Part shown: positions 2,800 through 42,192 of the stretch, one piece after another | Layout: every line of letters starts with the position of its first letter | How positions within the stretch are numbered: the first letter of the stretch is position 1 | Virus record (IMG/VR): IMGVR_UViG_3300025362_000011 | Coordinates: 1 to 49,538 of that record | DNA: 49,538 nt | Source of the DNA: a virus | Direction: 5' to 3' (one strand) | Program-made: the position numbers and the translations under genes | The notes under the pieces: generated by a model | What the model was told of the DNA's origin: nothing | Database searches by the model: none | What the model saw: the letters and a program-made list of their open reading frames with translations, nothing else

Positions 2800-2949
2800 A
2801 TGAGTGAAAATAACGAAACTACGATTGGTGTTAAACGAATAACTAGAGATGAATTAAAGATCATATCTATCAGAAGTGGGAAAAAATTATATGAATTGAT
2901 CGATGAATCAGTAGATTTATTAAAGGCTAAATATGGAATAAGACTATGA
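2800..2949 (+). CDS. Small ribbon-helix-helix-like protein of endonuclease cassette 1
   Basis: A 49-codon ORF with a GGAG ribosome binding site 8 nt before its ATG. The layout fits an Arc/MetJ-type ribbon-helix-helix protein: a short strand (TTIGVKRIT), a first helix (RDELKIISIRSG) and a second helix (KLYELIDESVDLLKAKYG). Such proteins bind DNA as dimers and often repress their own operon. Its stop overlaps the start of the endonuclease gene (ATGA), so the two are probably translationally coupled. Close homologues occupy the same place in the cassettes at 12484 and 27918. The fold is inferred from the pattern only. Confidence 0.65.
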   Translation: MSENNETTIGVKRITRDELKIISIRSGKKLYELIDESVDLLKAKYGIRL

Positions 2950-12633: not shown

Positions 12634-12685
12634 GTTGATTGAAGATTCAATTCCTTTACTAAGGGATAAATATAATGTTAGATGA
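12617..12685 (+). pseudogene. Remnant C-terminus of a second RHH-like gene carrying the endonuclease ribosome binding site
   Basis: A 22-codon frame reading MKKLCELIEDSIPLLRDKYNVR, which closely matches the last helix of the cassette 3 protein (KLYELIEESVPLLKEKYHVR). The N-terminal half is missing. It overlaps the end of the complete small ORF by 17 nt and the start of the endonuclease by 11 nt. The codons for LRDK contain AAGGGA at proper spacing (about 9 nt) for the endonuclease ATG at 12675, which may be why this tail was kept. Confidence 0.6.
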
Positions 12686-13850
12686 ACGTTATTTAATATG
12701 TCAAATATGCGGTAAAAAATATACTTCTATTAGAGGTGTTTTATCACATTCATCTCAGAAACATAAAATATATAAAAAAGAATATTATGATACATATTTT
12801 AAAAAAGAAAATGAAGGATTATGTAAAATATGTGGCGCCAAAACAAAATTTCATGGATTTGGAAGATATAGTATATATTGTTCTCAGACGTGCAAAATGA
12901 AAGATTTAGAAGTCCGTGATAAAATGAAAAAAACATGTTTAAAAAATCATGGAGTCAAATATTCATTACAATCCAAAGAAATACAAAAGAAAATCCAACA
13001 AACTATATTAGATAGATATGGTGTCAAAAATATTAGTCAATGCCCTGCTATACATCAAAAAAAGATTGATACTTCAATCTCCCATTATGGTGTAGAATAT
13101 CCATTTCAAGCAGATATAGTAAAAGATAAAATTAAAGAGTATATGATTAATTTATATGGTGTAGAAAATCCAAGTCGATGTCCAGAGATACAACAGAAAA
13201 AAATAGATACTAGTATAAAAAAATATGGAGTTGAACACCCATCTCAGACGAATGAATTTCAAGATAGAAGAAAAAATACATGTCTTGAAAAGTATGGAGT
13301 AGATAATCCTTTAAAGGATGAAACGATAAAACAAAAAGTTCAAAACACAAATTTAAATCGTTATAATGTTAAATGGGGATTATCATCAAAAATTATTCAA
13401 GAGAAAGGAATACGTACCAATCAAAAAAAATATGGATATGATTATTGGACACAATCACCAAAAGGAAGACAAAGGTTGAGAGATTATCACCTAAACAGAA
13501 TTCAAAAACAATATAATAATAATGAACCATTATGGCCATTTATTGGAGATGAAGAACGAAAATGTTTGAATGAATTACAAAAATATTGTGATTTTAAAAT
13601 TAAAAGAAATCCACGAATGATTGGGTATTTTCCAGATGGTTATATAAAGGAATTGAATTTAATAATTGAATTTGATGAACGTTATCATTTTATAGATAAT
13701 TATGAAACATATCGAGAAAAAGATATCAATAAAAATAATGATTATAAAAAATACAAATTCAATCTATTAAGAATAAAAAAATTAGATTGGATGATAAATC
13801 AAAAAAATGTAATCGAAATCTTTCGGAAAATCATCCAATCTATAACCTAA
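12675..13850 (+). CDS. Putative homing endonuclease, KYGV-repeat / EDxHD type, cassette 2
   Basis: A 391-residue protein. The head differs from cassette 1: a zinc-finger-like CQICGKKYTSIRGVLSH...H (residues 9-30), then CKICGAKTKF and YCSQTC (about 51-75). Eight KYGV-type repeats follow (about residues 90-265), then the nuclease domain with GYFPDGYIKELNLIIEFDERYHF near residues 318-340, where the second-last His of the HH pair is Tyr. It is inserted between the sheath gene and a structural gene, on the opposite strand, and ends 4 nt from the stop of the convergent neighbour. Confidence 0.75.
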   Translation: MLDERYLICQICGKKYTSIRGVLSHSSQKHKIYKKEYYDTYFKKENEGLCKICGAKTKFHGFGRYSIYCSQTCKMKDLEVRDKMKKTCLKNHGVKYSLQSKEIQKKIQQTILDRYGVKNISQCPAIHQKKIDTSISHYGVEYPFQADIVKDKIKEYMINLYGVENPSRCPEIQQKKIDTSIKKYGVEHPSQTNEFQDRRKNTCLEKYGVDNPLKDETIKQKVQNTNLNRYNVKWGLSSKIIQEKGIRTNQKKYGYDYWTQSPKGRQRLRDYHLNRIQKQYNNNEPLWPFIGDEERKCLNELQKYCDFKIKRNPRMIGYFPDGYIKELNLIIEFDERYHFIDNYETYREKDINKNNDYKKYKFNLLRIKKLDWMINQKNVIEIFRKIIQSIT

Positions 13851-14965: not shown

Positions 14966-17900
14966 TTATGATACATAACATGGATCTTCTTCATATCCAT
15001 TAATATAATTCTTTGAATAATATTCAGATCCATCTCTTTCCCATATTGTTATTGAACTATCACCTGAATATAAGAAAAATGGAATATATTTATTTAATAC
15101 ATAATAATCTAAAGATGATATAGTTGAAATATTAAAATCTGTAGGAAATGATATTTGTGATTCATATGCAGCTGGGATAAATCGATGCTCCTGTGAATAC
15201 TCAGATAAAGATGATGATGATGAAGATGAAGATATCAACATCGTTTTAATTTTAATAAACCCACCATAAGGATCAACACAATATACTATTTGATCAATAT
15301 CTACAGAATCTTGAACATGGCAATTACATTTGATAGGTTTAGTTACCATCTGAATCCCTTTAAAAGTTTCAAGAAATGGAACGACATTGCCACATACTGA
15401 TAATTCATCTGGGTTATCAACATTATAATCAGGAGCATTTAAATTAGCAGGAGTAGTTTCATTTGGTTCAAATATTCCATCTACTAATGTTTGAGTTATT
15501 TCTGATTTTGGTTTACCTACTGTTATTGTTTGAGTGATTGGAACTGTTATAGTTTCTTCCATTAGGAATGAAGATGGATCATCCAAGTTATTAGTCCATC
15601 TATCTTCAGATGGATCCATATCATTACCATTTAAGAAATTATCTGATTCTACTTGTAAATTATCCGGATCAGAATCATCTAAATCATCCATCGTATGTAA
15701 TTTCTCTTTCAATTCACTTCTAAGTAACAATGTATATTCATCAGATGAGGAAGAAGAGGATGATGACGATGATCCAGCTATTTCTCTAATTTCCCAATAA
15801 TGATAACCACTGTTCTTATCAAAAACATGAACCATCTCATTTCCATTTAGATCAACATAACAATAAGGATAATCTTCATCATGAGTTGTAGTTGTTACTC
15901 CAGGTTCCCAAGTTCCATTTAAATGACATAAAGCATCTGTGAAACCAACACCAACTATCTGATTATGATATATACCACATGATTTATATTCATTTGGCAT
16001 TTCAAATATAGCAATATCAGGAGTAAATAATGGAGTATCACATTCAGTACAGTAAGTATCACCTGGATTATCCATTGATATATTCCATAAAGATTCATTT
16101 TCCCAATGTTCTCTTATTGTATATTGTTCATCTATGGGAGCTATTGGGTTCCATATAGAATCTAAATTTTCTAAAAATCCCTGACTAATATGATGACTTG
16201 TATGTTCATCATATTCCAATTTAACTATACTATAATCTTGATATTGACCACCCATCCAGCTATATTGATCTTCAATATCATCATCAACTTCAGATAAAGA
16301 TTCCCATGTACCATCTGAGTTAATCATAAATGGATCAAATATTTTTCCAGTATCAACAAGTACAGATGATATCTTTATCGAATCTGAATCAATTTCAAAT
16401 TTCCCATATGATAAGATGGATGATGATTCTATTAAACCATCCCCCGTACCATTAACATTTCTAGGTATTTTACCAGCAGAAGGTATAGTAACCCAATGAA
16501 CTTCATCAGCCTCACAATGAGAGTAAAAATGATTATGTCCAGATAAAACTAAATGTACTCCATATGTAACACATAATGGTTGAAGTATGGTTCTTACTGT
16601 TGGATTATATCCATGAGCACCATCATCTGAATAGGCACCATGATGTAATATTATAATATCCCATTGACTTGTGCTATTGTTTAATTCATTTTCAATCCAT
16701 ACAGATTGGATTCCATCTGTTAGAGTAAATATATCTACAACAATTATTTTAGCTGGACCATAATTATATGAGTAATAAAAGGTATTTGGAACATACATTG
16801 GATATGGCATATATTTTTGATATATAATACCATTACCTTCATGATTCCCTCGACATCCCATTACTGGAATTTTAGATTGAAGTTCTGGCCAGTCTGAGTG
16901 ATTTCTCGAAAAATATTCAGCTGCCCATGATGATTCATTATCATAATCAGACCAATCCCCTAGATGTAACCACATAGATTGATATGATGGATCTGTATCA
17001 ATTGTATTTAACATTGAGCGAGCTACCCTATTCATCTGATTATGATCTTTTTTTGTATCACCAATAGCAAAGAATTTAATAGAATCCAAATTAGACTCCG
17101 ATGGAGCAGATACAAATGATCCTGCGACTAAATCAACTCTATAATAATATAGAGTATTTGGAATTAATCCCTGGATAGTATATTGATGTTGATGATCAGA
17201 ATTATATTCAGCATTTGAGGTGGAACGAATTTCATATTCTAAAGTTGTACCCCATTCTATAGTTGAAATTGTGTCAGTATTCGTTTGCCATAGAACTATC
17301 ATTTGAGTAGGATCATTTGGATATATTAAATATGGTCCTTTATCTAAATTATCTATATAATTTAAAAATATTCTTTGTTCTGGACCCCATTTAATCACTT
17401 GAGGATTAGTTGGACCATCATGGCAACAACCTACATCATAATAATCACAACAATCACTAAGATCTCTGCATGGATAACAATCATGAATAATAAAATTAAT
17501 ACCTGTGTATAATGGTCTATGATACACTGGTCCAGAATAAAATGAACTAGCATCCAATACCCACCATATTGGAGTTGAATATGAATAAGATATATTTGAA
17601 TCCAAACTAGGTGCAGTTAAAAATTGAATGAACTGTTCATTAGTGGTTATACTAATACTCCATTCCGATTCTTCTAACTTAACTGAATTAACATATATGC
17701 TAATATGATACGGATTAACTCGAATGACATTTAATTTAAACAAAGTCTTTGAACCATCACCTTTAGCAAATACAATTTCAGTTTCATTAAAATTATTAAA
17801 GTTGCTATCTGATTGATAGGTATCTCCATCAATGCTAGTTCTATTCGTAACCTTATCAGCACTACCATGTACAACTCTATCGTCAAGGCCATCATACATT

Positions 17901-20900
17901 GATATTTTATCATCATCGGGATAAGGCCATCTGTTAAAAGAATGTCCTTCTTCTTGATTCCCAATTGGATCCCCTGATCTGTTTAAAGCATCATAACCAC
18001 TATAACGTGAACCATCTAAATTCTCTGGATGACCCAATGCACCAGATGGAAATACACATCTAATATTAATTGGATCTTTACAGAGTACTGGACCCCAATG
18101 TCTAAGTGATGATGTTTCTTCTCTTAAAGTTTTAACATGCGGTGAACTAATTACAGTATCCCATCCGGGTAAATCTAATTTAGTTCTAGGATGAATAACA
18201 TTCCAATCATTTTCTACATCAAGATCATACCCTGACATATCAACATCATGTTTAACATCCCTAGGTGCAATATCAGTCGAAACTAAATCATCAATCTCTA
18301 TAATAGTTCTTCCATTGGTTATAGAACCAGGTGTATCACTCTTAGTATGCCATATACCAGTCAAGTATTTGGTATCATAACAAACATATAATGCATCACA
18401 CCAATCAAGATTATCTTTTCTTAATGCTATAATCCATTCTTTATCATAACCATGGATTTGAATATTTTTATTTTTGATTAAGGTTAGGCATACATTATGA
18501 TCATTTAAAAAATATGTTGAACTATCTTGTCCTAAATCACTTCTATTAAAATAAAATCCATTTACTCGATCATCTTCAAATCCAGTGAGATACATGATAG
18601 CTTCACCATATTCGGAATTATCGGGAATCTCATATACACTAACACTATCCTCTTGATGATATGATTTTTTATACAATCCATTATTGTTTTGAATAAATGG
18701 CATATCCTGTTTGGGAATATAATCATTGATCTGTTGGATAATTTTTGTTGCTTCTGGTCGATCTTCAACAATAATTGAATTAAATAATCTATCATCGAAT
18801 ACCAAATCAATAGTAAAATACAATAGACGTGATCTTTTCGGTTTAAAGAAATTGATTAAATCACGATGCAATCCACCATTTTTAATGTTTTTATAGATTC
18901 CAACAATATCTAAATCAGGATCATTAAATATTCTCTTAGTATAATTAGAAAATGCCACAAGAAATGAATCCGCAGTAGTTTCATAGTCTTCTTCTGATGT
19001 TGCTTTAGTATCTATCCAACTAATTAGATTATTATTGAATCCTAAATTGACTTGTTTTATTTCTGGTTTTCCTGGTATTCTACTAACTCGATTAATTGGA
19101 TCTTTTTTCCATATCGATAGAATTTCATCATAGATCCAAATTTCTGGATAACCATCATTTCCATTTGAAACTAGGATTTCTCCACCATTAGTCGATCCTT
19201 CTAAACCATTCAGATCTGTAATATTCAAAACGAATTGACCTCGAAGAATTCGTTCAGCATCATATCGATTTGTTAAATCAAGATTCGGAAAATGATAACC
19301 ACCCTGATAGAATTTCGATCCATTAGATGTCCATTCATTTTCAATTAAAGTGCGAACCCATACGATAACGTCATTATCATCAGTCATCCTAGTAAAGATA
19401 AAGTTACCATCACAAACCCGATTAAAATCAACTAATAGGTATCCATTTTCATCCATAACGAGATGATGTGTGTTAATATAATTATCTAAATCAGATGCGG
19501 TATATTGATAAGTTATTGGGTTATCACATAACGGACCGACGATAAAATCAAAAGTTTTCTTTTCAATATCTGATTGGTCATCACTTAGCCATATAGTAGC
19601 AACATATTCTGGAACCTTAGCTTTAATATGAGTTCGAGAAGTGTCTGATCTTAATCTCAAATGTCCATCTGGGGTAACTGGACCATCACAATAATCCCAT
19701 TCTATTTGACATTGATATCTTACCCATTTATTAACAGATGCATAAATATAAACATAACCATCATCATAGGTATGGTATCCAAGTTCATGGTTATCACTAC
19801 TAGAATTTGGCAATATTGGTGTATTAGACCATGAAATTTCTATTTTAGTACGAACCCAATTACTTGGTGATTTACAATAATAAAAATAATCACTATCAAC
19901 AGCCCAATTCCATTGTTTTGGTTGTGGAAATTTTTGGACAAAATAAGGAGTCAAAGAACTTCCATCATGCTCAATATCTTCAGTATAATCATCAGAACAC
20001 CATGAAATATATTCAAAGAATTCATCTTGATGTTTTCGAATAGCATCATATGTTGTGTTTTGATATTCATTATGAAGGTTACTTGATTGATAAGATTTAG
20101 CTACATTATCATATTCAACTCGAACAGTATCTTGATTTGCCACCCGATTCTGATCTTCAATGATTTCTGTATATTCGAATCCATCTTCATTAAAATCTGC
20201 ATTCCGTTCACCATTATAAAATAAAATCTTATCCATAGTAGTATCAGTCTGATCCATTCTATCGAAATGATCAATCTGATATATGAATGGATATTCAGTA
20301 TCATAAAAAATAGTAGGGATATTGGCCGGAGTGTGAGGATTGGGATCACTTGAATCTAAAGGATCCACTGGACGATTTATCCACCAAGACATTAATTCAT
20401 TATTAGAACAATAATAATTAGTAGAATCTGATACATTGTATCTTTTTATGATCGCGTCTAATGGTAATATACCATCAATTAATTCACCATCATTAATTCT
20501 CTTACATAACGAATATATCAATTCCTGATATGCCCACGGATATTCATATTCAGAGTTATCAATAACAATATGTTTTGAATCTAAAAAATCATACAGATGA
20601 ATATATTGTTTATATTCATCAGATCTAATTTGAGCATATGTCCAACCAAGAAATGATTCCAATAATGTAATTGCTTCATTATATCCCTCAATCCACAAGT
20701 CTCTTTCAGATAAATCTTCATTGAAACCACTAATACCAATATCTCTTGGGATTAAATCTGATTGCCCTTGTAAATATGCATTGAATTGTGCCGATAATGA
20801 TTTTTCTACAATCCCCATGATGGTATTATATTTCTCAATATCATGAACATAGTTAACTCCAAAGTACGGAGTTATAGATGGTAATTTCATCCAAGTATTA

Positions 20901-21772
20901 GGATTCCAGTTAATATCGATAATTTGTTTTTCAGTATACCACCAATGAGGATCTCCGATTTCAATTAATCGAGTCTGAAAATTTTGCCAACTAAGAATAG
21001 AATCATCTAATAATGTTTGGTCTTGTTTCCATTCATATTTATTATCAATTAGTTCTTGTTCCCACTTTCCAGATGCAATTCCCTTCAATCGAATGTTTTG
21101 ATACCCACGAGGTTCTCTCTCAACCCAAAATTCTCTAATATAACAATTCGTCAAACCAGCATAATAAAGTGAATTAACAATTGAATCTGCTGTTCCTTTT
21201 ATTTTATATAACTCAGTTAAAGCTAATAAAAAAATCTGCCGAGAATTCAAATTCGGTAATGTTTTCTGATTGACAAAATCGATACCAAATCCACGAATAG
21301 CCTTATCGATATCTTCATCATCCAGTGAAAAGGCATCAGATGCCTGTCTCATTAAATCTTTAAATGTTCTTGCTGCCGCTGACCAATCAACTACTAGTTT
21401 ACGAAATAACTCAATATCATTTGTATTATATGCATATGATCCAAGCACAATTACATTACCAAAATAATTTCTAATTTTATCTCTAGATTCAAGTGCTGTG
21501 TTTGCGACAGTGAAATCTTTAGGTAACGACAAACTAGTAACTGGATCCCAATCCATTATATCAATCATTAAATCAATACGATTCGTATTTGTTAAAGATT
21601 CATCTGTGATATATTCTTGTAATGAAATATGATCTACCTTAGTTCCATGATCCGGACAAAAATCTAATTTCCCTTTATATACTTTACCATCAATTCTACA
21701 TTTAGAAACAATCGTTGGATTATCTTTGAGAAATGTCAAGATTTGAAAATATCTATCTATGTTAAAAGCCAT
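14966..21772 (-). CDS. Giant tail/baseplate protein with embedded purple-acid-phosphatase-like module
   Basis: A 2268-residue protein. The first ~250 residues (for example QIFLLALTELYKIKGTADSI, then YAGLTNCYIREFWVERE) resemble the N-terminal part of tail protein I / wedge proteins. Residues about 600-830 hold several diverged repeats around a W-V-R core. Residues about 1480-1565 look like an FN3 domain (MIVLWQTNTDT, then IQGLIPNTLYYYRVDL). It is followed by a metallophosphoesterase domain with all signature blocks: GDTK (~1571), LGDWSDY, RGNHE (~1643), LHHGAYS (~1708) and SGHNHFYSH (~1744). FN3 plus this domain is the purple acid phosphatase architecture. Two serine runs (near 2010 and 2190) look like linkers. 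SD AAGGAT precedes the ATG. Likely on the virion, with a possible role on host surface phosphates. Confidence 0.7.
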   Translation of the reverse strand: MAFNIDRYFQILTFLKDNPTIVSKCRIDGKVYKGKLDFCPDHGTKVDHISLQEYITDESLTNTNRIDLMIDIMDWDPVTSLSLPKDFTVANTALESRDKIRNYFGNVIVLGSYAYNTNDIELFRKLVVDWSAAARTFKDLMRQASDAFSLDDEDIDKAIRGFGIDFVNQKTLPNLNSRQIFLLALTELYKIKGTADSIVNSLYYAGLTNCYIREFWVEREPRGYQNIRLKGIASGKWEQELIDNKYEWKQDQTLLDDSILSWQNFQTRLIEIGDPHWWYTEKQIIDINWNPNTWMKLPSITPYFGVNYVHDIEKYNTIMGIVEKSLSAQFNAYLQGQSDLIPRDIGISGFNEDLSERDLWIEGYNEAITLLESFLGWTYAQIRSDEYKQYIHLYDFLDSKHIVIDNSEYEYPWAYQELIYSLCKRINDGELIDGILPLDAIIKRYNVSDSTNYYCSNNELMSWWINRPVDPLDSSDPNPHTPANIPTIFYDTEYPFIYQIDHFDRMDQTDTTMDKILFYNGERNADFNEDGFEYTEIIEDQNRVANQDTVRVEYDNVAKSYQSSNLHNEYQNTTYDAIRKHQDEFFEYISWCSDDYTEDIEHDGSSLTPYFVQKFPQPKQWNWAVDSDYFYYCKSPSNWVRTKIEISWSNTPILPNSSSDNHELGYHTYDDGYVYIYASVNKWVRYQCQIEWDYCDGPVTPDGHLRLRSDTSRTHIKAKVPEYVATIWLSDDQSDIEKKTFDFIVGPLCDNPITYQYTASDLDNYINTHHLVMDENGYLLVDFNRVCDGNFIFTRMTDDNDVIVWVRTLIENEWTSNGSKFYQGGYHFPNLDLTNRYDAERILRGQFVLNITDLNGLEGSTNGGEILVSNGNDGYPEIWIYDEILSIWKKDPINRVSRIPGKPEIKQVNLGFNNNLISWIDTKATSEEDYETTADSFLVAFSNYTKRIFNDPDLDIVGIYKNIKNGGLHRDLINFFKPKRSRLLYFTIDLVFDDRLFNSIIVEDRPEATKIIQQINDYIPKQDMPFIQNNNGLYKKSYHQEDSVSVYEIPDNSEYGEAIMYLTGFEDDRVNGFYFNRSDLGQDSSTYFLNDHNVCLTLIKNKNIQIHGYDKEWIIALRKDNLDWCDALYVCYDTKYLTGIWHTKSDTPGSITNGRTIIEIDDLVSTDIAPRDVKHDVDMSGYDLDVENDWNVIHPRTKLDLPGWDTVISSPHVKTLREETSSLRHWGPVLCKDPINIRCVFPSGALGHPENLDGSRYSGYDALNRSGDPIGNQEEGHSFNRWPYPDDDKISMYDGLDDRVVHGSADKVTNRTSIDGDTYQSDSNFNNFNETEIVFAKGDGSKTLFKLNVIRVNPYHISIYVNSVKLEESEWSISITTNEQFIQFLTAPSLDSNISYSYSTPIWWVLDASSFYSGPVYHRPLYTGINFIIHDCYPCRDLSDCCDYYDVGCCHDGPTNPQVIKWGPEQRIFLNYIDNLDKGPYLIYPNDPTQMIVLWQTNTDTISTIEWGTTLEYEIRSTSNAEYNSDHQHQYTIQGLIPNTLYYYRVDLVAGSFVSAPSESNLDSIKFFAIGDTKKDHNQMNRVARSMLNTIDTDPSYQSMWLHLGDWSDYDNESSWAAEYFSRNHSDWPELQSKIPVMGCRGNHEGNGIIYQKYMPYPMYVPNTFYYSYNYGPAKIIVVDIFTLTDGIQSVWIENELNNSTSQWDIIILHHGAYSDDGAHGYNPTVRTILQPLCVTYGVHLVLSGHNHFYSHCEADEVHWVTIPSAGKIPRNVNGTGDGLIESSSILSYGKFEIDSDSIKISSVLVDTGKIFDPFMINSDGTWESLSEVDDDIEDQYSWMGGQYQDYSIVKLEYDEHTSHHISQGFLENLDSIWNPIAPIDEQYTIREHWENESLWNISMDNPGDTYCTECDTPLFTPDIAIFEMPNEYKSCGIYHNQIVGVGFTDALCHLNGTWEPGVTTTTHDEDYPYCYVDLNGNEMVHVFDKNSGYHYWEIREIAGSSSSSSSSSSDEYTLLLRSELKEKLHTMDDLDDSDPDNLQVESDNFLNGNDMDPSEDRWTNNLDDPSSFLMEETITVPITQTITVGKPKSEITQTLVDGIFEPNETTPANLNAPDYNVDNPDELSVCGNVVPFLETFKGIQMVTKPIKCNCHVQDSVDIDQIVYCVDPYGGFIKIKTMLISSSSSSSSLSEYSQEHRFIPAAYESQISFPTDFNISTISSLDYYVLNKYIPFFLYSGDSSITIWERDGSEYYSKNYINGYEEDPCYVS

Positions 21773-25054: not shown

Positions 25055-26416
25055 ATGAATTATAAAACATATCTATTCAATAAATCAATCAATTCTATCT
25101 CAGAGAGATTGATACGATCAGAAGTGTATAGAGCATTTGGTTTGATTCTTCTAAAATATGAAATAATATTAACAAATAAAATTCCCAAAGGAGCACCAGC
25201 TGCTACTGATTATAAAAGAATTTATATTAACCCTGAATCATCATTCTATACTGCATGTGATGTTAATATTGATCATATATCAACATTTACTATAATGCAT
25301 GAAATTTCCCATATTATCTTTATGCATGATAAACGAATTGGGTGTCGAGATAAGATTCTGTGGGGATATGCTACTGATTTTATGATCAATCTTTTATTAG
25401 ATAATATAGAGAAAGAAACGGTGAGATGGGAAGCTCAACAAAAATTAATCGTAATGAGTATTAAAAGATTCAAAGATACTATATGCTATAATAAATCATT
25501 TGAATCTATGTTAGAAGAAGAGATATATGATAAATTGGAGAAGGATGGGAATTACACATCAGAGAAAACAACTCAATCATATAAACAATTTTTAGAAGAT
25601 GTGGGTATCCCATCTGATGGAGTTGATGAATATGAGGATATTGAAATCGAAGAAACTGAACTTAAACTGGATGGTATTGTTAAGAAGAAGACCTTTATTA
25701 AATTCCCAAAAGCTAAAAATCAACTAGATGGTGATGATGAAGTCCTAGATACTCAACTAGCTAAGACTATGTTTGAAACCAACATTCTTAGTCGAGGTTT
25801 TGAAAACTCAGACTTTAAGAAATTCCTTAATAGAATGTGTGAGGTTAAAGTTCCTTGGACTACTATCCTCCAAGATTCTATTCTGATAGAACTCCAGAAA
25901 TCAAGTGATGTTTCATATGGAAAACCAAGAATGGCATGGTTAGTGAATCCTACTCTACCTTATATGCCTTCATATGAAGAGGAAGAGGTATTGGGTGATG
26001 CTATAGTTTCAATTGATGAGTCAGCTTCTGTTAGTGATAATGATATTTCGACTGCGATATCTATCATACAACAAGCTAATTCTTACTATAAACGATTGAG
26101 AATTATTAAACATGATACTAAAGTTAAATGGGAAAACACCTATGAAGATTCATTAACTGAAGATGATATAACTGAATTATTGATTAGGCGTCATTCTGGA
26201 GGAACAAATCATCGATGTGTTTTTGAAAAAGTGATGGAGTATAATCAAGATTCTGATCATTTTATCAGTATTTTGATAGTGATTTCAGATATGTATTCTG
26301 ATATTTCGAAGAGTCAATCTATAATACCAGATTCTATTCCCAGAATATATTTGAAAACGAATTCGAGTGACTTGGATTATGATAATATTAAAGGGAAAAT
26401 AATAAAAATACAATAG
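25055..26416 (+). CDS. HExxH metallopeptidase-like / VWA-like protein (DUF2201 type), partner of MoxR ATPase
   Basis: A 453-residue protein. The N-terminal half has MHEISHIIFMH (HEISH at 82-86), the zinc-metallopeptidase-like signature of the DUF2201 family. The C-terminal half (from about 310) reads as a VWA-like domain with a MIDAS-type DxSxS motif (SIDESASVSD, near 321) and a terminal strand pattern ISILIVISDMYSD. An acidic linker (about 190-215) separates them. In bacteria and phages such proteins are encoded next to MoxR AAA+ ATPases, and here one follows (26598). Whether the HExxH is active is unknown. It ends with TAG, and the frame stays open for another 62 codons (see next entry). 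Confidence 0.7.
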   Translation: MNYKTYLFNKSINSISERLIRSEVYRAFGLILLKYEIILTNKIPKGAPAATDYKRIYINPESSFYTACDVNIDHISTFTIMHEISHIIFMHDKRIGCRDKILWGYATDFMINLLLDNIEKETVRWEAQQKLIVMSIKRFKDTICYNKSFESMLEEEIYDKLEKDGNYTSEKTTQSYKQFLEDVGIPSDGVDEYEDIEIEETELKLDGIVKKKTFIKFPKAKNQLDGDDEVLDTQLAKTMFETNILSRGFENSDFKKFLNRMCEVKVPWTTILQDSILIELQKSSDVSYGKPRMAWLVNPTLPYMPSYEEEEVLGDAIVSIDESASVSDNDISTAISIIQQANSYYKRLRIIKHDTKVKWENTYEDSLTEDDITELLIRRHSGGTNHRCVFEKVMEYNQDSDHFISILIVISDMYSDISKSQSIIPDSIPRIYLKTNSSDLDYDNIKGKIIKIQ

Positions 26417-27917: not shown

Positions 27918-28064
27918 ATGAATCAAGAAACGACAATAGCCCTAAAAAAAGAAACTAGAGATCAATTAAAAATAATAGCAATTTTTTCTAATAAAAAGTT
28001 ATATGAATTGATCGAAGAATCAGTTCCTTTACTGAAGGAGAAATATCATGTCAGAAATTTGTAA
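27918..28064 (+). CDS. Small ribbon-helix-helix-like protein of endonuclease cassette 3
   Basis: A 48-codon ORF with GGAG 7 nt before its ATG. Strand TTIALKKET, helix RDQLKIIAIFSN, helix KLYELIEESVPLLKEKYHV. It shares much of its length with the cassette 1 protein (TTI, DxLKII, KKLYELI, ESV, LLK, KY). The codons for LLKEK contain AAGGAG, placed 7 nt before the endonuclease ATG at 28048, and the two genes overlap by 17 nt. An autoregulatory DNA-binding role is inferred. Confidence 0.65.
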   Translation: MNQETTIALKKETRDQLKIIAIFSNKKLYELIEESVPLLKEKYHVRNL

Positions 28065-29037
28065 AATATGCGGTGAACACAAGAAACGACTAGGCAATCA
28101 TATTAGATCAATTCATCATATATCTTTAAAAGAATATTATGATAAATATCTAAAAAAAGAAGGTGAAGATATATGTCCAATATGTAAAAAGAAAAAGAAA
28201 TTTGGTAGGGATTTAAATGAGGGCTATTCATTGTATTGTTCCAGGCGATGTGCTATGAAAAGTGAAAATGTAATAGAAAAAAGAAAAATAGCATCTCTTG
28301 AGAAATATGGAGTAGATCATCCTATTAAATCAAATATTATCAAAAACAAAATAAAGAAAATTTTAAAAAAGAAATATAATGTAACATGTACTCTGAGAAT
28401 CCCGTGGGTTATTGAAAAATCTAAATGTTCAAATATTCAAAAATATGGTTATGAAAATGCTGCTTCATCACTTGAGGTCAAGAATAAAATTAGAAAAACA
28501 TTACATACCAAATATGGCGGACATCATTTAAGATTAAAAGAATTCCAAGATAAACAAAGGATTACAGTTAATGAACATTATGGAGTAGATAATATATCCC
28601 AATCTCATGAAATTCAAGAAAAAAAGAAACAAACATGTCTAGAAAGATATGGATATGAGCATTATTCTAAAACTAAAAAATTTCGAAAAAATGCAAAACA
28701 ATCAATAATTAAAAGATATGGTGATGGTAATATTATAGTTCCTATGATCGGATATAATGAACCAGAATTTTTTAAGAAACTCCAATTATACACGAATTAT
28801 ATTATCACTAGACCAACTAAACCATTATTTGGTTGTTATCCAGATGGTTATATTGAAGAATTAAGTTTAGTTATTGAGTTTGATGAACCGCACCATAATT
28901 CTCCCGCATCTAAAAGAAATGATAATTTAAAAGATGAAATTTACCTAGACCATAATTTAAAAATTTTTCGAGTTAAACAAGATATTTGGGATTCTAATCC
29001 GGAAATAGTTATCAAGGAATTTCAATCATTCTTATAA
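28048..29037 (+). CDS. Putative homing endonuclease, KYGV-repeat / EDxHD type, cassette 3
   Basis: A 329-residue protein with a zinc-finger-like head close to that of cassette 2: CKICGEHKKRLGNHIRSIH (5-23), CPICKKKKKF and YCSRRC. Seven repeats of the KYGV/KYGY type follow (about 85-225), then the nuclease domain with GCYPDGYIEELSLVIEFDEP and HHN near 270-293, keeping the D, E and HH positions. It ends 15 nt from the stop of a convergent gene. The cassette is preceded by a terminator, so it is an independent unit. Confidence 0.75.
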   Translation: MSEICKICGEHKKRLGNHIRSIHHISLKEYYDKYLKKEGEDICPICKKKKKFGRDLNEGYSLYCSRRCAMKSENVIEKRKIASLEKYGVDHPIKSNIIKNKIKKILKKKYNVTCTLRIPWVIEKSKCSNIQKYGYENAASSLEVKNKIRKTLHTKYGGHHLRLKEFQDKQRITVNEHYGVDNISQSHEIQEKKKQTCLERYGYEHYSKTKKFRKNAKQSIIKRYGDGNIIVPMIGYNEPEFFKKLQLYTNYIITRPTKPLFGCYPDGYIEELSLVIEFDEPHHNSPASKRNDNLKDEIYLDHNLKIFRVKQDIWDSNPEIVIKEFQSFL

Positions 29038-32008: not shown

Positions 32009-33895
32009 ATGAAAGAGTGGTCTGATGTCGAGAAGAAAACCTTATTTGATTTAAAGAATAAGACAACTCTCACTTATGCAATTATTGGGCAAAAGTTACA
32101 TCGAAGTCCTGGTGCAGTCACTCGAATGTATCAAAAAACTAACTGGAAGAAATTTTTTCGAACAGTTACAGATATAACTGATTCAACAATTTCTAAACAA
32201 ATAGTAATTGATAATTTTATTGATAATTTAACTATCGCATTAATTGAAATGTCAAGACATGATATTAGACGATTAAAAGAAATAACCAAAACAGATTTTT
32301 TAAAACATGCAATTCTACCATCCAAAACATTACCAATTACTTTCACTGAGTTAAAAAGAAAGGCAGTATATGAATTAGATGAGATTGGTTATTCATTCCC
32401 GAATGCAAAGATTATGGGAAAAGGAACTTATATTATTGTTGGAGATACACATGGTAAACATACTAGAACAGGAATGTTCAAGTTAATTAAGAATTTATCT
32501 AAACATATCAATGCTACTAAGATAATCCATGTTGGTCATTTTATAGATGATGATAATGATTTTAATCATAATTGGAATCAAATTCCAAATTTGAGTATTA
32601 TAGCTAAAGAAGAAGAATTAAAAATATTAGCTAAAATGAATATGTCACATGAAATTATTAGAAATGAAATTCAACTTGGTGATAATCTTTCAATTCAGAA
32701 TCAAGATTTAATGACTGATTATGTTCAAACACCATTATCAAGTGGAATATCGCAAGAATATTTTGAAATGTCAACTATTACTAATTTGCACAGACATGAA
32801 TTTAATACTAGATGTACTGAAAAAGATGTATATTCCTATATTGCATCACCAGGAAGTTTATGTGAACAGCATATAACATACTGTATTCGGCAGCAAGATT
32901 TTACTGATGGGCGAACCGTAAAAATGACATATCCCACTGGGTATAAAAAATACAGACGCATGAAACATATGTATAAAACTTGGCAACAAGGATGTATTAT
33001 AGTTGAAGTTGATGGTGATGGTGAATCTCATATTCATATGTGTCGTATTCATAAAACATCTGGAGGTTTCACTACTTCTTATTTCGATAAGATTATAACT
33101 GAAACTAAAATAGTTAAGCCAGATGAAAAAACTATGATAATATCTGATTTGCATGTGGATTTGCATGATGAGAATGTATTAGATATCGAGGAACAGATTT
33201 CTAAAGAATATAAACCTGACACACTAATTAATTTGGGTGATATGAATGAGAATAAATCAATAAATCATCATGAATTTAAAAAAATTGGATCGATGCATGT
33301 TGATAAAAGTATATTAAATGAATCAGCATCTAGTAATTTTGTCATAAACAGACTAAGTCACTGGGCTGATAAAATGATTTTACTATTAGGAAATCATGAA
33401 AGATTTTATACGGATTTATGTAATAAACTACCCCAATTTACTGATATTTTAAATTTTAAATTCATAAATGGAATATCTGATATGAATATAGAAATTGTTG
33501 ATATGAAACATATGAAAAAACATAATAATAATTCTTATGTTCATGGTGATATATTAATGTATGGACAACGAGGGGGTAACAAACTAGATAAGTTATTTAG
33601 AACATATGGTCGAAATGTTGTAATGGGACATTGTCATTATCCATCATGTAGGTTTGATTGTTATACAATTGGACTCTCTGGAAAATTAGATCTTGAATAT
33701 AATGAAGTTGGGGCGTCGACATGGATTCAGGGGTGTGCGTTATCTAATTCATTTGAAGATATTTCATTTATATCAAATATTTTAATAATAAATAATAAAA
33801 CTCAAATAAATGGAAAGGTATTTAAATCCACCAACCCAGAGAACTGGAAAGTACCTAAATTTGTAGCTAAATTGCAATTTGATTTTTCGGAATAA
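32009..33895 (+). CDS. Protein with N-terminal HTH and two metallophosphoesterase domains, the first degenerate
   Basis: A 628-residue protein with SD AAGGAG. Residues 1-50 look like a SANT/HTH domain (WSDVEKKTLFDLK, YAIIGQKLHRSPGAVTRMYQ). Domain 1 begins YIIVGDTHGKH (141-151), but the second block is VGHFIDDD, with His where Asp is expected, and no GNHE block follows in normal form. Domain 2 is complete: ISDLHVDLHD (~376), NLGDMNEN (~410), LGNHER (~461), YVHGD (~511) and MGHCHYP (~540). Domain 2 should be a two-metal phosphoesterase, domain 1 a regulatory or DNA-positioning copy. The HTH head suggests a nucleic acid substrate. The endonuclease-like gene at 33901 follows after 5 nt. Confidence 0.7.
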   Translation: MKEWSDVEKKTLFDLKNKTTLTYAIIGQKLHRSPGAVTRMYQKTNWKKFFRTVTDITDSTISKQIVIDNFIDNLTIALIEMSRHDIRRLKEITKTDFLKHAILPSKTLPITFTELKRKAVYELDEIGYSFPNAKIMGKGTYIIVGDTHGKHTRTGMFKLIKNLSKHINATKIIHVGHFIDDDNDFNHNWNQIPNLSIIAKEEELKILAKMNMSHEIIRNEIQLGDNLSIQNQDLMTDYVQTPLSSGISQEYFEMSTITNLHRHEFNTRCTEKDVYSYIASPGSLCEQHITYCIRQQDFTDGRTVKMTYPTGYKKYRRMKHMYKTWQQGCIIVEVDGDGESHIHMCRIHKTSGGFTTSYFDKIITETKIVKPDEKTMIISDLHVDLHDENVLDIEEQISKEYKPDTLINLGDMNENKSINHHEFKKIGSMHVDKSILNESASSNFVINRLSHWADKMILLLGNHERFYTDLCNKLPQFTDILNFKFINGISDMNIEIVDMKHMKKHNNNSYVHGDILMYGQRGGNKLDKLFRTYGRNVVMGHCHYPSCRFDCYTIGLSGKLDLEYNEVGASTWIQGCALSNSFEDISFISNILIINNKTQINGKVFKSTNPENWKVPKFVAKLQFDFSE

Positions 33896-33900
33896 ATAAT

Positions 33901-34587
33901 ATGAATAATTTATGTGAATGTGGATGTGGATTAAAAACAAAAATAAATAATCGATCTAAACAATTTAATAGATTTGTTGTAGGTCATAATAGAAGAGGAA
34001 CTCCATTCACTGGAAGGAAACATTCTGATGAATCAAATTTAAAAAATTCAATATCATGTACTGGGAAAAAACATTCAGATGAAACTAAATTAAAAATGTC
34101 AAAATCTTTTACAGGACGAAAATATAAACATGGGATCATATTCAAAGGAAGTCAGGGATTTTTAGGAAAAAAACATTCCGATAAAACAAAACAAAAAATG
34201 AGAATATCAGCAATCAAACATATAGAAAAACAACTATTAAATGGTGAACCTATAATGCCCAGAGTTGGTGATTTGGAACGGCCATTCTTAAACGAACTTC
34301 AAAAATATACGGAATATAAAATCCTAAGACAAGATCCAAGATTTAGATATGTGATTGGTAGATTTCCGGATGGCTATATTCCAGAATTAAAATTATTCAT
34401 TCTATTTGATGAACTTCATCATTTTAAAGATAAAGAATGTTTAATATATAATAAAGATAGTCTTTGTGAGATTCGTGATTATGAATCATTAAAAAAACAT
34501 ACTATACTCAGAGTTTCTGAAAAAGAATGGCTGGATAATCCAAAGCAAATAATAAAACAATTTATTTTGAGGATTAGTCATGGATGA
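33901..34587 (+). CDS. Homing-endonuclease-like protein with NUMOD3-type repeats, probably inactive
   Basis: A 228-residue protein. The head LCECGCGLKTK...H (4-29) matches the head of endonuclease 1. The KYGV repeats are replaced by four NUMOD3-like repeats (GRKHSDES, GKKHSDET, GRKYKHG, GKKHSDKT; about 38-100). The nuclease domain retains GRFPDGYIPEL (about 158-168) but the key segment is LFILFDELHHF, where Glu of the IEFDE motif is replaced by Leu. It has no RHH-like partner and sits on the same strand as its neighbours. Confidence 0.65.
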   Translation: MNNLCECGCGLKTKINNRSKQFNRFVVGHNRRGTPFTGRKHSDESNLKNSISCTGKKHSDETKLKMSKSFTGRKYKHGIIFKGSQGFLGKKHSDKTKQKMRISAIKHIEKQLLNGEPIMPRVGDLERPFLNELQKYTEYKILRQDPRFRYVIGRFPDGYIPELKLFILFDELHHFKDKECLIYNKDSLCEIRDYESLKKHTILRVSEKEWLDNPKQIIKQFILRISHG

Positions 34588-34732
34588 AAAATCTGCTGCA
34601 ATGATTTTATTAAAATCAAGGATTCATAAAACTATATCAAATACCATATACGAGGGTTGTCCTACTTGCCCGAAGAAAAAATCCGAACATATTATAAAGC
34701 AGATATATAAGAAGAAAACTAAACGAGGATAA
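34580..34732 (+). CDS. Small basic CxxC protein
   Basis: A 50-codon ORF that overlaps the end of the endonuclease-like gene by 8 nt and ends 1 nt before the next gene. It is Lys-rich with one CPTC pair (NTIYEGCPTCPKKKSEH). SD-like TGAGGA lies ahead of the ATG. Function unknown; its tight spacing places it in the operon with the PH/GRAM-like and metacaspase genes. Confidence 0.55.
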   Translation: MDEKSAAMILLKSRIHKTISNTIYEGCPTCPKKKSEHIIKQIYKKKTKRG

Positions 34733-34733
34733 A

Positions 34734-35351
34734 ATGTTAAATACTACTAGTTACTTGTCAGAAGCATTCAATACATTACATCGAAGTCGTGAGAAATCTA
34801 CTAATCTAGTTCTAGAGAAAACATCGGGTAATGATATATTTAATAGAGATATCATAGATTATGAAAATGCAGAAAGCATATCTCCATTCCATAAAAATAC
34901 AGATGAGAAGATATTAGTTAAACTGGATGGTATCGTATGGGTTGAAAATTTATCTATTGGTAGTCTAATAATTACTGATCAGAGATTTTTCTATCAACCT
35001 CAATATTATGATATTCCAATGACTAAACATAGTATAGAAATCCCAATTGATAAAATTACAATTGCAGGACATTGGCTGATCAAGGGAGTATCAGGTATAG
35101 TTATTTTTGTTGGTGATACCCATGCTAAGGTTGAGTTCGTTTCAAAAATCCCCCATAAAATGATTAAAGTATGGAAGACTTTTAAACAGTTAAATGGAAA
35201 ATGGAAAGATTTAGATCAGAATAGAATTAATAAAATGCAAAAGAATGGTATACTTAAAGGTTTAGCTTTAGCGAGTGGGTTGGTTATGGCTAAAGGCACT
35301 ATTCTAAAAGGGATCAACTTAGTTTCAAAATTTTTAGGAGCAAAACAATGA
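34734..35351 (+). CDS. PH/GRAM-like domain protein
   Basis: A 205-residue protein. Residues about 55-155 follow the pattern of a GRAM or bacterial PH-like domain: ILVKLDGIVWVENLSIGSLI, then ITDQRFFYQPQYYD, then HSIEIPIDKITIAGHWL, then VIFVGDTHAKVEFVS (strand, 'T/S-D-x-R', strand, 'I-xx-I' helix lead-in, final strands). Such domains bind lipids or proteins. The C-terminal 35 residues hold a weakly hydrophobic Gly/Ala/Leu stretch (GLALASGLVMAKGTILKG), possibly membrane-touching. It overlaps the next small gene by ATGA and leads into the metacaspase gene. Confidence 0.5.
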   Translation: MLNTTSYLSEAFNTLHRSREKSTNLVLEKTSGNDIFNRDIIDYENAESISPFHKNTDEKILVKLDGIVWVENLSIGSLIITDQRFFYQPQYYDIPMTKHSIEIPIDKITIAGHWLIKGVSGIVIFVGDTHAKVEFVSKIPHKMIKVWKTFKQLNGKWKDLDQNRINKMQKNGILKGLALASGLVMAKGTILKGINLVSKFLGAKQ

Positions 35352-35497
35352 ATATAGATAAAGTAGCAAAATACCATAAAGCAGTACATGAAACATTAGG
35401 TCATTCAAAAGAGAGAATTAATAAAATGGTTCACTCTAAGTGGTTTGATGATGATGTTGATATTAAAACAGAGAAGAATGATGTAAAGAAAAAATAA
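35348..35497 (+). CDS. Small charged protein upstream of the metacaspase
   Basis: A 49-codon ORF that starts inside the stop of the PH/GRAM-like gene (ATGA). Rich in Lys, Asp and His (YHKAVHETLGHSKERINKM), helical, with an acid-basic tail. It ends 13 nt before the metacaspase. It could be a regulator or substrate of the protease, but there is no direct sign. Confidence 0.55.
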   Translation: MNIDKVAKYHKAVHETLGHSKERINKMVHSKWFDDDVDIKTEKNDVKKK

Positions 35498-35510
35498 GTG
35501 AGGTGATATT

Positions 35511-36308
35511 ATGTATGACAAAGTAGCAGTAAACATAGGTATTAATAAATATCCAAACCCAGCCAATAGACTTAATGGTTGTGTTCCTGATGCAAAATTA
35601 ATGAGAAGAGATCTCATGAAGAAATTTAATTTTGATAAGAGTTTTCTTTTGTTGGATTCAAAAGCAACATATGAACGAACAGTTAACACAATAGAATCAT
35701 CATTGAAGATGTTAAATGATGGTGGTCATTGGGTATTCACTGTTTCAAGTCATGGAACAACAGTACCTGATAGAAACGGAGACGAGAAAGATAAAAGAGA
35801 TGAAGCCATATGTTTATATGATAGAATTTTAATTGATGACGTGTTTAGGAAAATACTATTACATGCTCCACATAATATGAAAATGACTATCATTACTGAT
35901 TGTTGTCATAGTGGGACAATCACACGTGGATCATATATTAGGAAGTTTGGTAGTATGCCAGCAAATAAATATGCAAAACCTAGATACCTTCCTCCTAATG
36001 ATGATTCATTCGCAATGTCAAATGATGTTCTATCTTCTCGAGTACCTGCCTTTATCCCGCAAGAAGAGATGAATGAAGTTTTAATCACTGGATGTATGAG
36101 TCATGAGTTTTCTTATGATGCAGTATTTAATGGTAAATACAATGGAGCACTAACTTATAATCTTTCTAAAATTTTTAATAAATATCAAGATATTACTTAT
36201 AATCAATTAATGGCATTGATTAAAGCTGAACTTCCGTCAACTCATTATCCTCAGACTCCACAATTAGAAGGTAGTGAAGCAAATAAAAAGAGGATCATAT
36301 TCAGTTAA
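35511..36308 (+). CDS. Metacaspase-like cysteine protease (peptidase C14 fold)
   Basis: A 265-residue protein with SD AGTGAGGTGAT. The caspase-fold signs are complete: start VAVNIGINKYPNPANRLNGC (6-24) followed by PDAKLMRRDL; catalytic His in VSSHGTTVPD (His81); acidic pocket DEAICLYD (97-104), typical of Arg/Lys-specific metacaspases; and the Cys loop IITDCCHSGT (Cys132). Later blocks VLITGCMSHEFSYD and YNGALTYNLSK match the p10-like part. The protein has no prodomain and no membrane segment, so the protease would be cytoplasmic. It is last in a four-gene run with a PH/GRAM-like protein and two tiny ORFs. Confidence 0.85.
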   Translation: MYDKVAVNIGINKYPNPANRLNGCVPDAKLMRRDLMKKFNFDKSFLLLDSKATYERTVNTIESSLKMLNDGGHWVFTVSSHGTTVPDRNGDEKDKRDEAICLYDRILIDDVFRKILLHAPHNMKMTIITDCCHSGTITRGSYIRKFGSMPANKYAKPRYLPPNDDSFAMSNDVLSSRVPAFIPQEEMNEVLITGCMSHEFSYDAVFNGKYNGALTYNLSKIFNKYQDITYNQLMALIKAELPSTHYPQTPQLEGSEANKKRIIFS

Positions 36309-36326
36309 TATAGATGGATTTTTATA

Positions 36327-36351
36327 TCTATATATATTAAATAATGAATAG
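36327..36351 (+). promoter_or_regulatory. Copy 2 of the 25-nt TCTATATATATT element
   Basis: Begins TCTATATATATTAAATAATG. It lies 18 nt after the metacaspase stop and overlaps by 6 nt the 5' side of the tRNA-like fold. Confidence 0.5.
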
Positions 36352-36420
36352 ATAACTCAATTTGGTAAGAGTAATCGGTTAAAACCCGAGAGGTTATGGG
36401 TTCGAATCCCATTCTTTTTT
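36346..36420 (+). tRNA. tRNA-like gene, anticodon uncertain (AAA as folded), no encoded CCA
   Basis: D arm ACTC-AATTTGGTAA-GAGT (36355-36372) and T arm ATGGG-TTCGAAT-CCCAT (36396-36412) are canonical. The anticodon stem has TCGG/CCGA plus an A-G mismatch, with loop TTAAAAC giving AAA at 34-36, which would be Phe but with an unusual A34. The acceptor stem GAATAGA / TCTTTTT has one T-T mismatch and one G-T pair. The variable loop is 5 nt. It could be a working but odd tRNA or a decayed one. Confidence 0.5.
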
Positions 36421-36487: not shown

Positions 36488-36572
36488 AAGATAATTGTCT
36501 TCATGTTTTTAAACCCTTAACGTAATCATTTAGTCCAAACTAATTAAAATTTTGATTATGTTAAGGGTTTAA
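36487..36572 (+). other. Structured leader of the gene at 36643: a small and a large stem-loop
   Basis: GAAGA/TCTTC (36487-36502) forms a 5-bp stem with a 6-nt loop. Next, 36509-36528 and 36553-36572 form a 20-bp stem with a single G-T pair and a 24-nt loop containing no conserved motif I know. No T run follows, so the large hairpin may be a leader structure or processing site rather than a terminator. The remaining ~70 nt to the start codon are AT-rich without other signals. Confidence 0.5.
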
Positions 36573-40151: not shown

Positions 40152-40365
40152 TAGATGCGGAGAAGAATTCTTTTATAGTGAAGATGATGATATTCGAGAT
40201 AATGATTTAATTCAAATTGATATCAGGAAAGTTGTCATTGATGAAAATGGAAATACATGTCCATTATTTTCTATCCCACCAGATAAGAGACGATTAGTGG
40301 GAGATAAATTTATCAAGATGATATGTCATAACTGTTTGCCATTAAAACAAAAGATTGGAGATTAA
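40132..40365 (+). CDS. Small zinc-ribbon-like protein
   Basis: A 77-residue protein with CDRCGEEF (6-13) and MICHNCLP (near 65-70), two CxxC pairs that would bind one zinc. The linker is acidic. It overlaps the HAD gene by 20 nt and ends just before the peptide deformylase gene. Function unknown. Confidence 0.6.
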
Positions 40366-40366
40366 A

Positions 40367-40927
40367 ATGATAGTTACAAATCAAGAGCATCTTTGTGAAC
40401 CTTCAACTGATATTAAATCAGTGGAGGAAGCAAAGGAAATTTTACATCTGCTAGATAGAGAGATGCAAAATCATCCAAATGGAGTAGGGTTATCAGCTAT
40501 ACAGATAGATATCTCTAAGAGGGTGGCCTTGATTAAATATAAAGGTGAACGGTACACCCTTATAAATCCAACCATAGAGAACACTGAGGATGAGTTCTTT
40601 CACCACAATGAAGGTTGTTTATCATTCCCAGGACGATTTTGTACAGTTCCGAGATTTAAACAAATCACTCTTAATAATACTGTGTTTGATGAATCAGCCC
40701 CTGATGGATGGAGAGAAGAAAGAACTGTACATTATGTTGGTGATGATGGTGATGATTTAAGTCCAATTATTATTCAGCATGAAGTTGATCACATGAATGG
40801 GATCCTTATGGTTCATAAAGAAATCATTCTAGAGCCTGTTATTGTTGATGAAAAAATTGGCAGAAATGATCCATGTCCATGCGGAAGTGGAAAGAAGTAT
40901 AAAAAATGTTGTCTAAAAAAAGGATAA
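40367..40927 (+). CDS. def: Peptide deformylase with C-terminal SEC-C motif
   Basis: Start set at ATG 40367 (GGAG 7 nt before); a TTG four codons earlier is less likely. 186 residues. All three PDF motifs are present: GVGLSAIQ (39-46), EGCLSFPG (82-89) and QHEVDH (137-142), giving the Cys-His-His metal site and the catalytic Glu. After about residue 160 comes a SEC-C zinc motif ([19 protein letters not shown], 164-182), as found in SecA and some ribosome- or chaperone-linked proteins. The enzyme removes the formyl group from nascent proteins. PDFs are known in phages, but the SEC-C tail is unusual and may bring it to ribosomes. Confidence 0.85.
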
Positions 40928-40931
40928 TTTG

Positions 40932-41483
40932 ATGGATAAATCATATATTGATGTTACTGAAGGTGATGATGTACCATTACCACAACCAAATACTCTGAGA
41001 TCCCCAAATCTCTTTAAAATCCCGTACAGTACAAAATTCCCATATAGAGATCCTATTACTCAACAAATTAAATATCGAATTAATAAGGTATTTATGATAG
41101 TCAGGGCCAATAATGAGAACCATGCTGAAAATTTATTCAATGAATATTCAAAAGGCAAAGATTGGATTATTGATATCGGTAATTGTGAACCAATAGACCT
41201 ACTAGTTGATTCATCCATAACGAATGATCAATCATCACAAATGTCTATAATAACATTTATTCATCATGTTGAAAATAATGTTAAATGTTACATTAAAATA
41301 GCTAAAGAATCAGTTTTTAGAAATAAACACATGAATGAATTAAAAAATATAAATGAACTTGATAATTTAGATCAAAAAATAATTGATGCATTATTTGTTG
41401 ATTTTATTAATTTTGTTGCTCTGAAGAAAGGTGTTGATTATGCTATGTATACTAAAGATTTAAAGAATAAATTAAAATCATAG
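40932..41483 (+). CDS. Hypothetical protein
   Basis: ATG 40932 preferred over TTG 40929. 183 residues, acidic N-terminus with Pro (EGDDVPLPQPNTLRSPNLFK), mixed alpha/beta core and a basic helical end. No motif recognised. It lies 4 nt after the deformylase stop. Confidence 0.5.
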   Translation: MDKSYIDVTEGDDVPLPQPNTLRSPNLFKIPYSTKFPYRDPITQQIKYRINKVFMIVRANNENHAENLFNEYSKGKDWIIDIGNCEPIDLLVDSSITNDQSSQMSIITFIHHVENNVKCYIKIAKESVFRNKHMNELKNINELDNLDQKIIDALFVDFINFVALKKGVDYAMYTKDLKNKLKS

Positions 41484-41724: not shown

Positions 41725-42192
41725 ATGGCGAAATTGTCTATGATGTGTGGATACCCTAGAAGTGGGAAATCCACATGGATTAAAAAAAACAAAGGTACCA
41801 GATTAGTAATTGAACCAGATTGGGTTCGAAGAGAGATTCTAGGTCACACCTTCCATCAACCGGCAGAACCAATAATATGGTTAATAGCTGATAGTTTCAT
41901 AAGAGTTTGTCTAAGTCAAAACCAAGATGTTATATTAGACGGAATCAATCTACAGCCTTTTATTCGTTCAAAATACATTCATCTCGCACAATCTCTAGAT
42001 TGTAAAATTGAATGTATATGGGTAGATACGCCCATAGATGAATGTATTCGAAGAAATGAAGAGTCTGATATTAATAACAAATTACCAACATCAATATTAA
42101 TTGGAAAACAATCAGTATTTGTGACTCCGAAACTAGAAGAAGGTTTTAGTTCAATCACTATTATACACACAGGAGAGACATGCAAGAAATAA
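41725..42192 (+). CDS. P-loop kinase (AAA_33 / polynucleotide-kinase-like)
   Basis: A 155-residue protein with SD GGAGAG. Walker A GYPRSGKST (9-17). VIEPDWVRREILG (about 28-40) is the substrate-binding Asp block typical of zeta-toxin/PNK-type small kinases, DVILDGINL (about 71-79) is Walker B-like, and the lid carries CIRRNEES. The substrate may be a nucleoside, a nucleic acid 5' end or another small molecule. The stop is overlapped by the next gene (12 nt). Confidence 0.7.
   Translation: MAKLSMMCGYPRSGKSTWIKKNKGTRLVIEPDWVRREILGHTFHQPAEPIIWLIADSFIRVCLSQNQDVILDGINLQPFIRSKYIHLAQSLDCKIECIWVDTPIDECIRRNEESDINNKLPTSILIGKQSVFVTPKLEEGFSSITIIHTGETCKK

Follow-up and report, generated by a model that had tools for sequence, protein, structure and literature searches.

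Bacteria use proteases of the caspase family in their conflict with phages, and eukaryotic giant viruses encode such proteases as well. The known caspase defence systems, among them Canu, Craspase/CHAT, the gasdermin-linked systems and caspase-linked Thoeris, are listed in a review (PMC12799240). Another prokaryotic homologue is MaOC1, an orthocaspase from Microcystis with a ParD-like antitoxin as a substrate (PMC7935541); an orthocaspase in the strict sense is p20-only, without a p10 domain (PMC5756287). Furthermore, for peptidases that occur patchily among phages, an accessory role directed at the host has been argued (Iyer et al., PMC7824862). No description of a bacteriophage metacaspase was found in the PMC full texts, a corpus that covers few subscription journals and is thus weak evidence for novelty. 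Here we describe a phage gene for such an enzyme, a relative of the caspases of animal cell death, and the DNA around it.

The sequence studied, hereafter the window, is the whole IMG/VR record IMGVR_UViG_3300025362_000011 (49,538 nt, 49.5 kb; G+C content of 31.6%). Genes for tail sheath, tail tube, and baseplate wedge and hub proteins were found on its minus strand, and the best matches of the sheath by query coverage were jumbo phages, for example Bacillus PBS1/AR9 and S6-like phages of Staphylococcus, at 25-30% identity. From these tail genes and sheath matches, the window is judged to be part of the genome of a huge, jumbo-type phage with a contractile tail. Neither portal nor capsid genes were recognised in the window. 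The tail module was common to three short IMG/VR contigs, mostly at 50-75% identity, and none of the three had a match to the metacaspase region of the window. Five homing/HNH endonuclease genes (2946-3872, 12675-13850, 25055-26416, 28048-29037, and 33901-34587) were observed, several of them between or beside structural genes, and a minus-strand ORF of 2268 aa in the structural region (14966-21772) had no PHROG match. The accessory genes at 32009-33895, 40355-40927, 40929-41483, and 41725-42192 were common to the window and the large phages G885 and G886, to which the metacaspase contigs L057 and L058, respectively, belong. The window structural genes had no match in these two phages. The comparison suggests that accessory genes may have been exchanged between otherwise unrelated large phages.

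The metacaspase gene lies among small plus-strand genes, more than 20 kb from the nearest recognised minus-strand virion genes, and these small genes are assumed to be expressed early. The sequence-only reading had placed it last in a tight run of four genes. The four ORFs and their close spacing were confirmed; however, the plus-strand run is longer, since two genes stand upstream. The first is a metallophosphoesterase gene of 628 codons (32009-33895; PF00149, E = 7.9e-9) with an AAGGAG motif, whose product is 40% identical over 609 aa to that of a gene in the 476-kb phage G886. A metallophosphoesterase also occurs near the metacaspase of L057, and a link between the two enzymes was considered and rejected, since the neighbour search detected no similarity between the L057 and window phosphoesterases and the window-type phosphoesterase is unlinked to the metacaspase of G886. 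The second is a NUMOD3 homing endonuclease gene (33901-34587; PF07460, E = 1.9e-11; phrog_314, E = 1.4e-9), which begins 5 nt after the phosphoesterase gene, overlaps the ORF that follows, and has no Shine-Dalgarno motif before it; it is a probable mobile insertion.

The four ORFs themselves, all on the plus strand, encode a basic product of 50 aa (34580-34732), an orphan PH/GRAM-like protein of 205 aa (34734-35351), a lysine-rich product of 49 aa (35348-35497), and the metacaspase of 265 aa (35511-36308). The first two are separated by 1 nt, the second and third overlap by 4 nt, and the third ends 13 nt before the metacaspase. By reading of the sequence, all four have a Shine-Dalgarno-like motif just upstream (GAGGA, GAGGA, AGGAG, and GAGGTGAT, in this order, the last at 35500-35507). 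A coding score, which measures three-periodic composition in bits/nt after training on the long genes of the window, was compared with that of 55 spurious ORFs (95th percentile, 0.048). It supported the PH-like gene (0.082), the 49-aa ORF (0.105, above all 55 spurious ORFs), and the metacaspase (0.081), but not the 50-aa ORF (0.002). Directly 3' of the metacaspase is a tRNA gene (36346-36420, plus strand; ARAGORN; Rfam RF00005, 55.3 bits) with the anticodon AAA (Phe). This anticodon is unusual for a tRNA-Phe, as that of bacteria is normally GAA. A long hairpin with 20-nt arms that are 95% complementary (36509-36572, plus strand; dG of -28.3, z of -7.5) stands before the gene at 36643. It is a possible end of the transcription unit; no T-run follows it immediately, and no second copy was found within the window. 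The promoter scan of the window gave a chance-level result.

The metacaspase (peptidase C14B) matched the Pfam family Peptidase_C14 (PF00656) with an E-value of 1.3e-20 and PDB entry 3bij with an E-value of 1.5e-19, and a 12-sequence profile of the family matched Trypanosoma brucei MCA2 (TbMCA2) with 190 bits. The nearest solved proteins were GSU0716 (3bij), plant and yeast metacaspases, and TbMCA2. An AlphaFold (AF2) model from nine sequences reached a pLDDT of 74 and a pTM of 0.77, with low confidence in the linker (residues 136-185) and fair confidence in residues 186-265. The best Foldseek matches of this model were Arabidopsis MC9 and 3bij, and the top 25 consisted of metacaspases and the related bacterial 3bij, in agreement with a caspase-like fold. 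The protein is a single domain, with neither a prodomain nor an added domain.

The residues of the active site were then placed by alignment with TbMCA2, whose residues are numbered on the assumption that its PDB chain carries a 20-residue tag. H81 and C132 of the window protein aligned with H158 and C213 of TbMCA2 and with the dyads of the other solved metacaspases. The S1 pocket residues C24, D27, S79, and D130 corresponded to C92, D95, S156, and D211, and all four were intact. Thus, the earlier description of a complete His81/Cys132 metacaspase with an acidic Arg/Lys pocket was borne out: the Pfam, PDB, and profile matches were far beyond chance, the numbering was correct, and the four pocket residues were equivalent to those of TbMCA2. 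Three of the TbMCA2 calcium ligands D173, D189, D190, and D220 aligned with D97, D109, and D110; at the D220 position the window has R139, and an Arg was also present in 54 of the 71 viral copies described below. The assignment of C92 to the S1 pocket of TbMCA2 is confirmed in PMC5756287. A p10-like C-terminal part was also present, as the family profile reached position 355 of the TbMCA2 chain, and the identity of a strict, p20-only orthocaspase was therefore ruled out.

A tblastn search of 50,697 phage records returned one metacaspase match, in LR745208.1 (485 kb; 33% identity), and the confident matches in the viral structure library included only caspases of eukaryotic viruses and no annotated bacteriophage caspase. 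Peptide-pattern scans of IMG/VR with the window metacaspase, the PH-like protein, or the phosphoesterase alone gave no relatives. A two-sequence metacaspase profile recovered only the 485-kb phage; the 12-sequence profile opened a wider family, and the profile scan of IMG/VR found a metacaspase in 70 further viral contigs, many of them longer than 100 kb. This count is a lower bound, since the scan used one exact motif that covers only the Cys region. Phage metacaspases recur, mostly in large phages, and are almost unseen in annotated ones. The identity of a eukaryotic giant virus could be rejected only for contigs in which the metacaspase lies near genes for terminase, UvsX, gp32, endolysin, HSP20, or ClpS; tail sheaths were also sought in 47 metacaspase contigs, with matches in 7, and the search was uninformative for most of them. 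By Pfam, no metacaspase was present in 17 records that have either the gene downstream of it or the tail genes in common with the window, so the gene is not tied to either of them.

Across the viral copies, the window included, H81, D109, and D130 were kept in 71 of 71, D27 in all 68 that cover the position, and S79 in 67 of the 71. C132 and D130 lie inside the search motif. Since H81, D27, S79, and D109 lie outside it, their conservation is independent of how the copies were found. The window has S80 where 64 of the 71 copies have a Gly before the catalytic His. That dyad and pocket are kept across deep divergence implies that the window protein is probably active, as a cysteine endopeptidase for which cleavage is predicted after Arg or Lys. 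In a tree of 102 sequences, the window metacaspase stood on a long branch and grouped with those of L057 (161 kb) and L058 (476 kb) with an SH-aLRT support of 99 and identities of 44-45%. The copy of LR745208.1 was found elsewhere on the tree, and a nearest shared origin with it was rejected. Bacterial relatives were nearly as close to the window protein as most of those from viruses (33% for L049). On the tree, nine changes between viral and bacterial labels were required, three of which were forced by well-supported branches; by its topology, the tree fits several transfers with stable phage clades.

The neighbours of the other viral copies were then compared. L057 and L058 share a syntenic block of a 5'-3' exonuclease, a SIS protein, the metacaspase, a sigma factor, and a RuvB-like ATPase, in which the exonuclease and the SIS protein were named by Pfam, and the sigma factor and the ATPase by reading of the sequence. 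The two metacaspases are 53% identical, about equal to the best of the block. Because this value is far above that of the sigma factor (26%), the metacaspase appears, on sequence grounds, to be kept by selection in this lineage. Among 75 flanking genes in other phages, no recurrent partner of the metacaspase was seen, and the recognisable ones were mainly genes for replication/recombination, packaging, lysis, and nucleases. In LR745208.1 (7655-16944), the metacaspase lies near an HD_4 protein (ppGpp-hydrolase-like), a 2H phosphoesterase with weak similarity to Acb1, and a vWA protein; this region is possibly a counter-defence cluster.

As the best explanation, we propose that the stand-alone, putative Arg/Lys metacaspase is encoded by an accessory, host-directed phage gene and cuts regulatory or defence proteins of the host or the phage, a reading that we consider evenly poised between likely and unlikely. 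The enzyme would be made inside the infected cell as a single-domain protease, its targets would be few, namely proteins of the host (or the phage) with roles in regulation or defence, cleaved at basic sites, and these cuts may help the phage to redirect or disarm the cell. The patchy occurrence and the accessory position of the gene favour action on the host. However, the core-like block in L057 and L058 could equally mean a role in the replication programme of the phage itself. We infer enzymatic activity, Arg/Lys specificity, action within the host, and a part in takeover rather than virion building; virion maturation and self-killing are less likely roles. Slightly more tentative is the wider proposal that phages, mainly large ones, carry an unrecognised and recurrent class of active metacaspases, in some lineages fixed within core replication blocks or within an HSP20-ClpS proteolysis operon, which remodel the host proteome as executioner or regulatory proteases of the phage side.

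This operon bears on a different use of the cuts, in protein turnover. The order metacaspase-HSP20-ClpS-SufBD-115-aa protein is kept in nine viral contigs (L086, L087, L090, L099, L101, L103, L106, L107, and L113), of which L107 is without HSP20 and L099 has an extra minus-strand ORF; a DNA ligase gene is often next, and a ClpX-type gene lies upstream in the longer contigs. If the cuts expose N-termini for ClpS-type adaptors, the products could be passed to the host or phage Clp machinery (quality control/N-degron). However, the ClpS-linked metacaspases form a clade distant from that of the window on the tree, too distant for direct transfer to the window, and no relative of ClpS, HSP20, or ClpX was found in the window, L057, or L058. 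For the window gene, a turnover tool is thus unlikely, and the ClpS-linked lineage suggests how metacaspase cuts might become degradation.

A weapon between phages, that is, a phage-carried effector which is switched on by a competing phage during superinfection and stops or kills the cell, is distinctly unlikely. Caspase-family proteases do act in several antiphage systems (PMC12799240), and the PADLOC caspase model matched the window protein with an E-value of 6.9e-13. However, no sensor, gasdermin, nuclease, or toxin partner was recognised in the run, the protein has no added sensor domain, and most viral copies are likewise compact (240-330 aa). Among the neighbours scanned with Pfam, PADLOC, and NCBIfam, no partner of bacterial caspase defence was recognised.

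Processing of virion proteins is common in phages, and the metacaspase could accordingly trim head or tail proteins in assembly. A terminase-like gene, by reading of the sequence, lies near the metacaspase of L059, and a few terminases flank other loci. Nevertheless, the 75 flanking genes gave no link to portal or capsid genes, and the metacaspase has no fixed place near the tail module in the window and is scattered among unrelated phages, so that a maturation protease is improbable.

Improbable to the same degree is the dedicated four-gene system that had been proposed for the window, in which membrane placement of the protease falls to the PH/GRAM protein, and its inhibitors, activators, or substrates are the two small proteins. 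The tight spacing and the good ribosome-binding motifs agree with such a system, the 49-aa ORF is by its coding score probably a gene, and both small proteins are rich in Lys/Arg (26% and 24%, compared with 11% for the window proteome). However, the 50-aa ORF is doubtful as a gene, having no coding signal, and the PH homology is unproven. The 205-aa protein contains the GRAM/PH-like motif GSLIITDQRFFYQP, and its C-terminal end is amphipathic; the best Pfam matches were below the cut-off (DUF956, E = 0.11; SPT5 KOW domain, E = 0.0075), no relative was found in the PDB, and a single-sequence AlphaFold model had a pLDDT of 31 and no usable fold. The PH/GRAM-like identity is therefore a motif-level impression. 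Searches of the phage collection, plasmids, and IMG/VR gave no relative of this protein; the 49-aa ORF had no known family and no credible phage relative, and the 50-aa ORF had no family match and no phage relative. Moreover, no relative of the three proteins was found near the 70 other viral metacaspases, and a search of 49 whole viral records, of which 47 carry metacaspases, likewise gave no relative of the PH-like protein, although small or fast-evolving proteins may escape such neighbour searches and a negative result does not equal absence. The neighbours in L057 and L058 were quite different. Conservation of the four-gene order was thus not detected among these loci, and unconserved neighbours had been named beforehand as grounds for refutation; a dedicated system is accordingly not supported. 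What is conserved is the protease rather than the operon, and the 205-aa orphan and the two small ORFs are best explained as local passengers.

It is very improbable that the metacaspase is itself a functionless passenger captured from a bacterium, since its patchy occurrence, its long branch, and its close bacterial relatives have to be weighed against the retention of the active-site residues in every viral copy tested and the strong conservation and synteny in L057/L058 and the ClpS clade.

Should the phage enzymes prove active, phages too would use relatives of caspases to control infected cells by proteolysis, and phage metacaspases would be candidates for counter-defence screening. The recurrent linkage with ClpS and HSP20 would then offer a directly testable tie between limited proteolysis and the N-degron pathway.

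Among the known systems, the window metacaspase resembles GSU0716 of Geobacter sulfurreducens (3bij), a bacterial single-domain metacaspase with which it agrees in size, in p20/p10-like order, in the dyad, and in the pocket (217-bit match to the family profile; TM-score of about 0.72). However, GSU0716 is the product of a chromosomal bacterial gene, and the window copy is phage-encoded and about 26% identical to it. The eukaryotic type I/II metacaspases (TbMCA2, yeast Yca1, and Arabidopsis MC4/MC9) share the fold, the dyad, and the Arg/Lys pocket residues, with Foldseek E-values of the window model down to 5.8e-17, whereas the window copy lacks an N-terminal prodomain and a long linker and has an Arg at the position of TbMCA2 D220. 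MaOC1 resembles the window protein, as predicted here, in being a prokaryotic caspase homologue that cuts at basic residues; it is, however, p20-only and encoded beside a toxin-antitoxin pair, whereas the window protein has a p10-like part and no such pair was recognised. The C14 proteases of eukaryotic giant viruses (Fadolivirus, Clandestinovirus, medusavirus, and others) are virus-borne and were the best matches in the viral structure library, but these viruses infect eukaryotes, unlike the window phage. The metacaspases of LR745208.1, L057, and L058 are phage-borne, 33-45% identical to that of the window, and intact in the active site, and their neighbours differ from those of the window. 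With the antiphage caspase systems, the window locus has in common a caspase-fold protease in the conflict between phage and bacterium. No partner from the Canu, CRISPR, gasdermin, Thoeris, or EACC1 caspase systems was found beside the window metacaspase with Pfam, PADLOC, and NCBIfam, and, in contrast to those systems, the window gene stands on the phage side.
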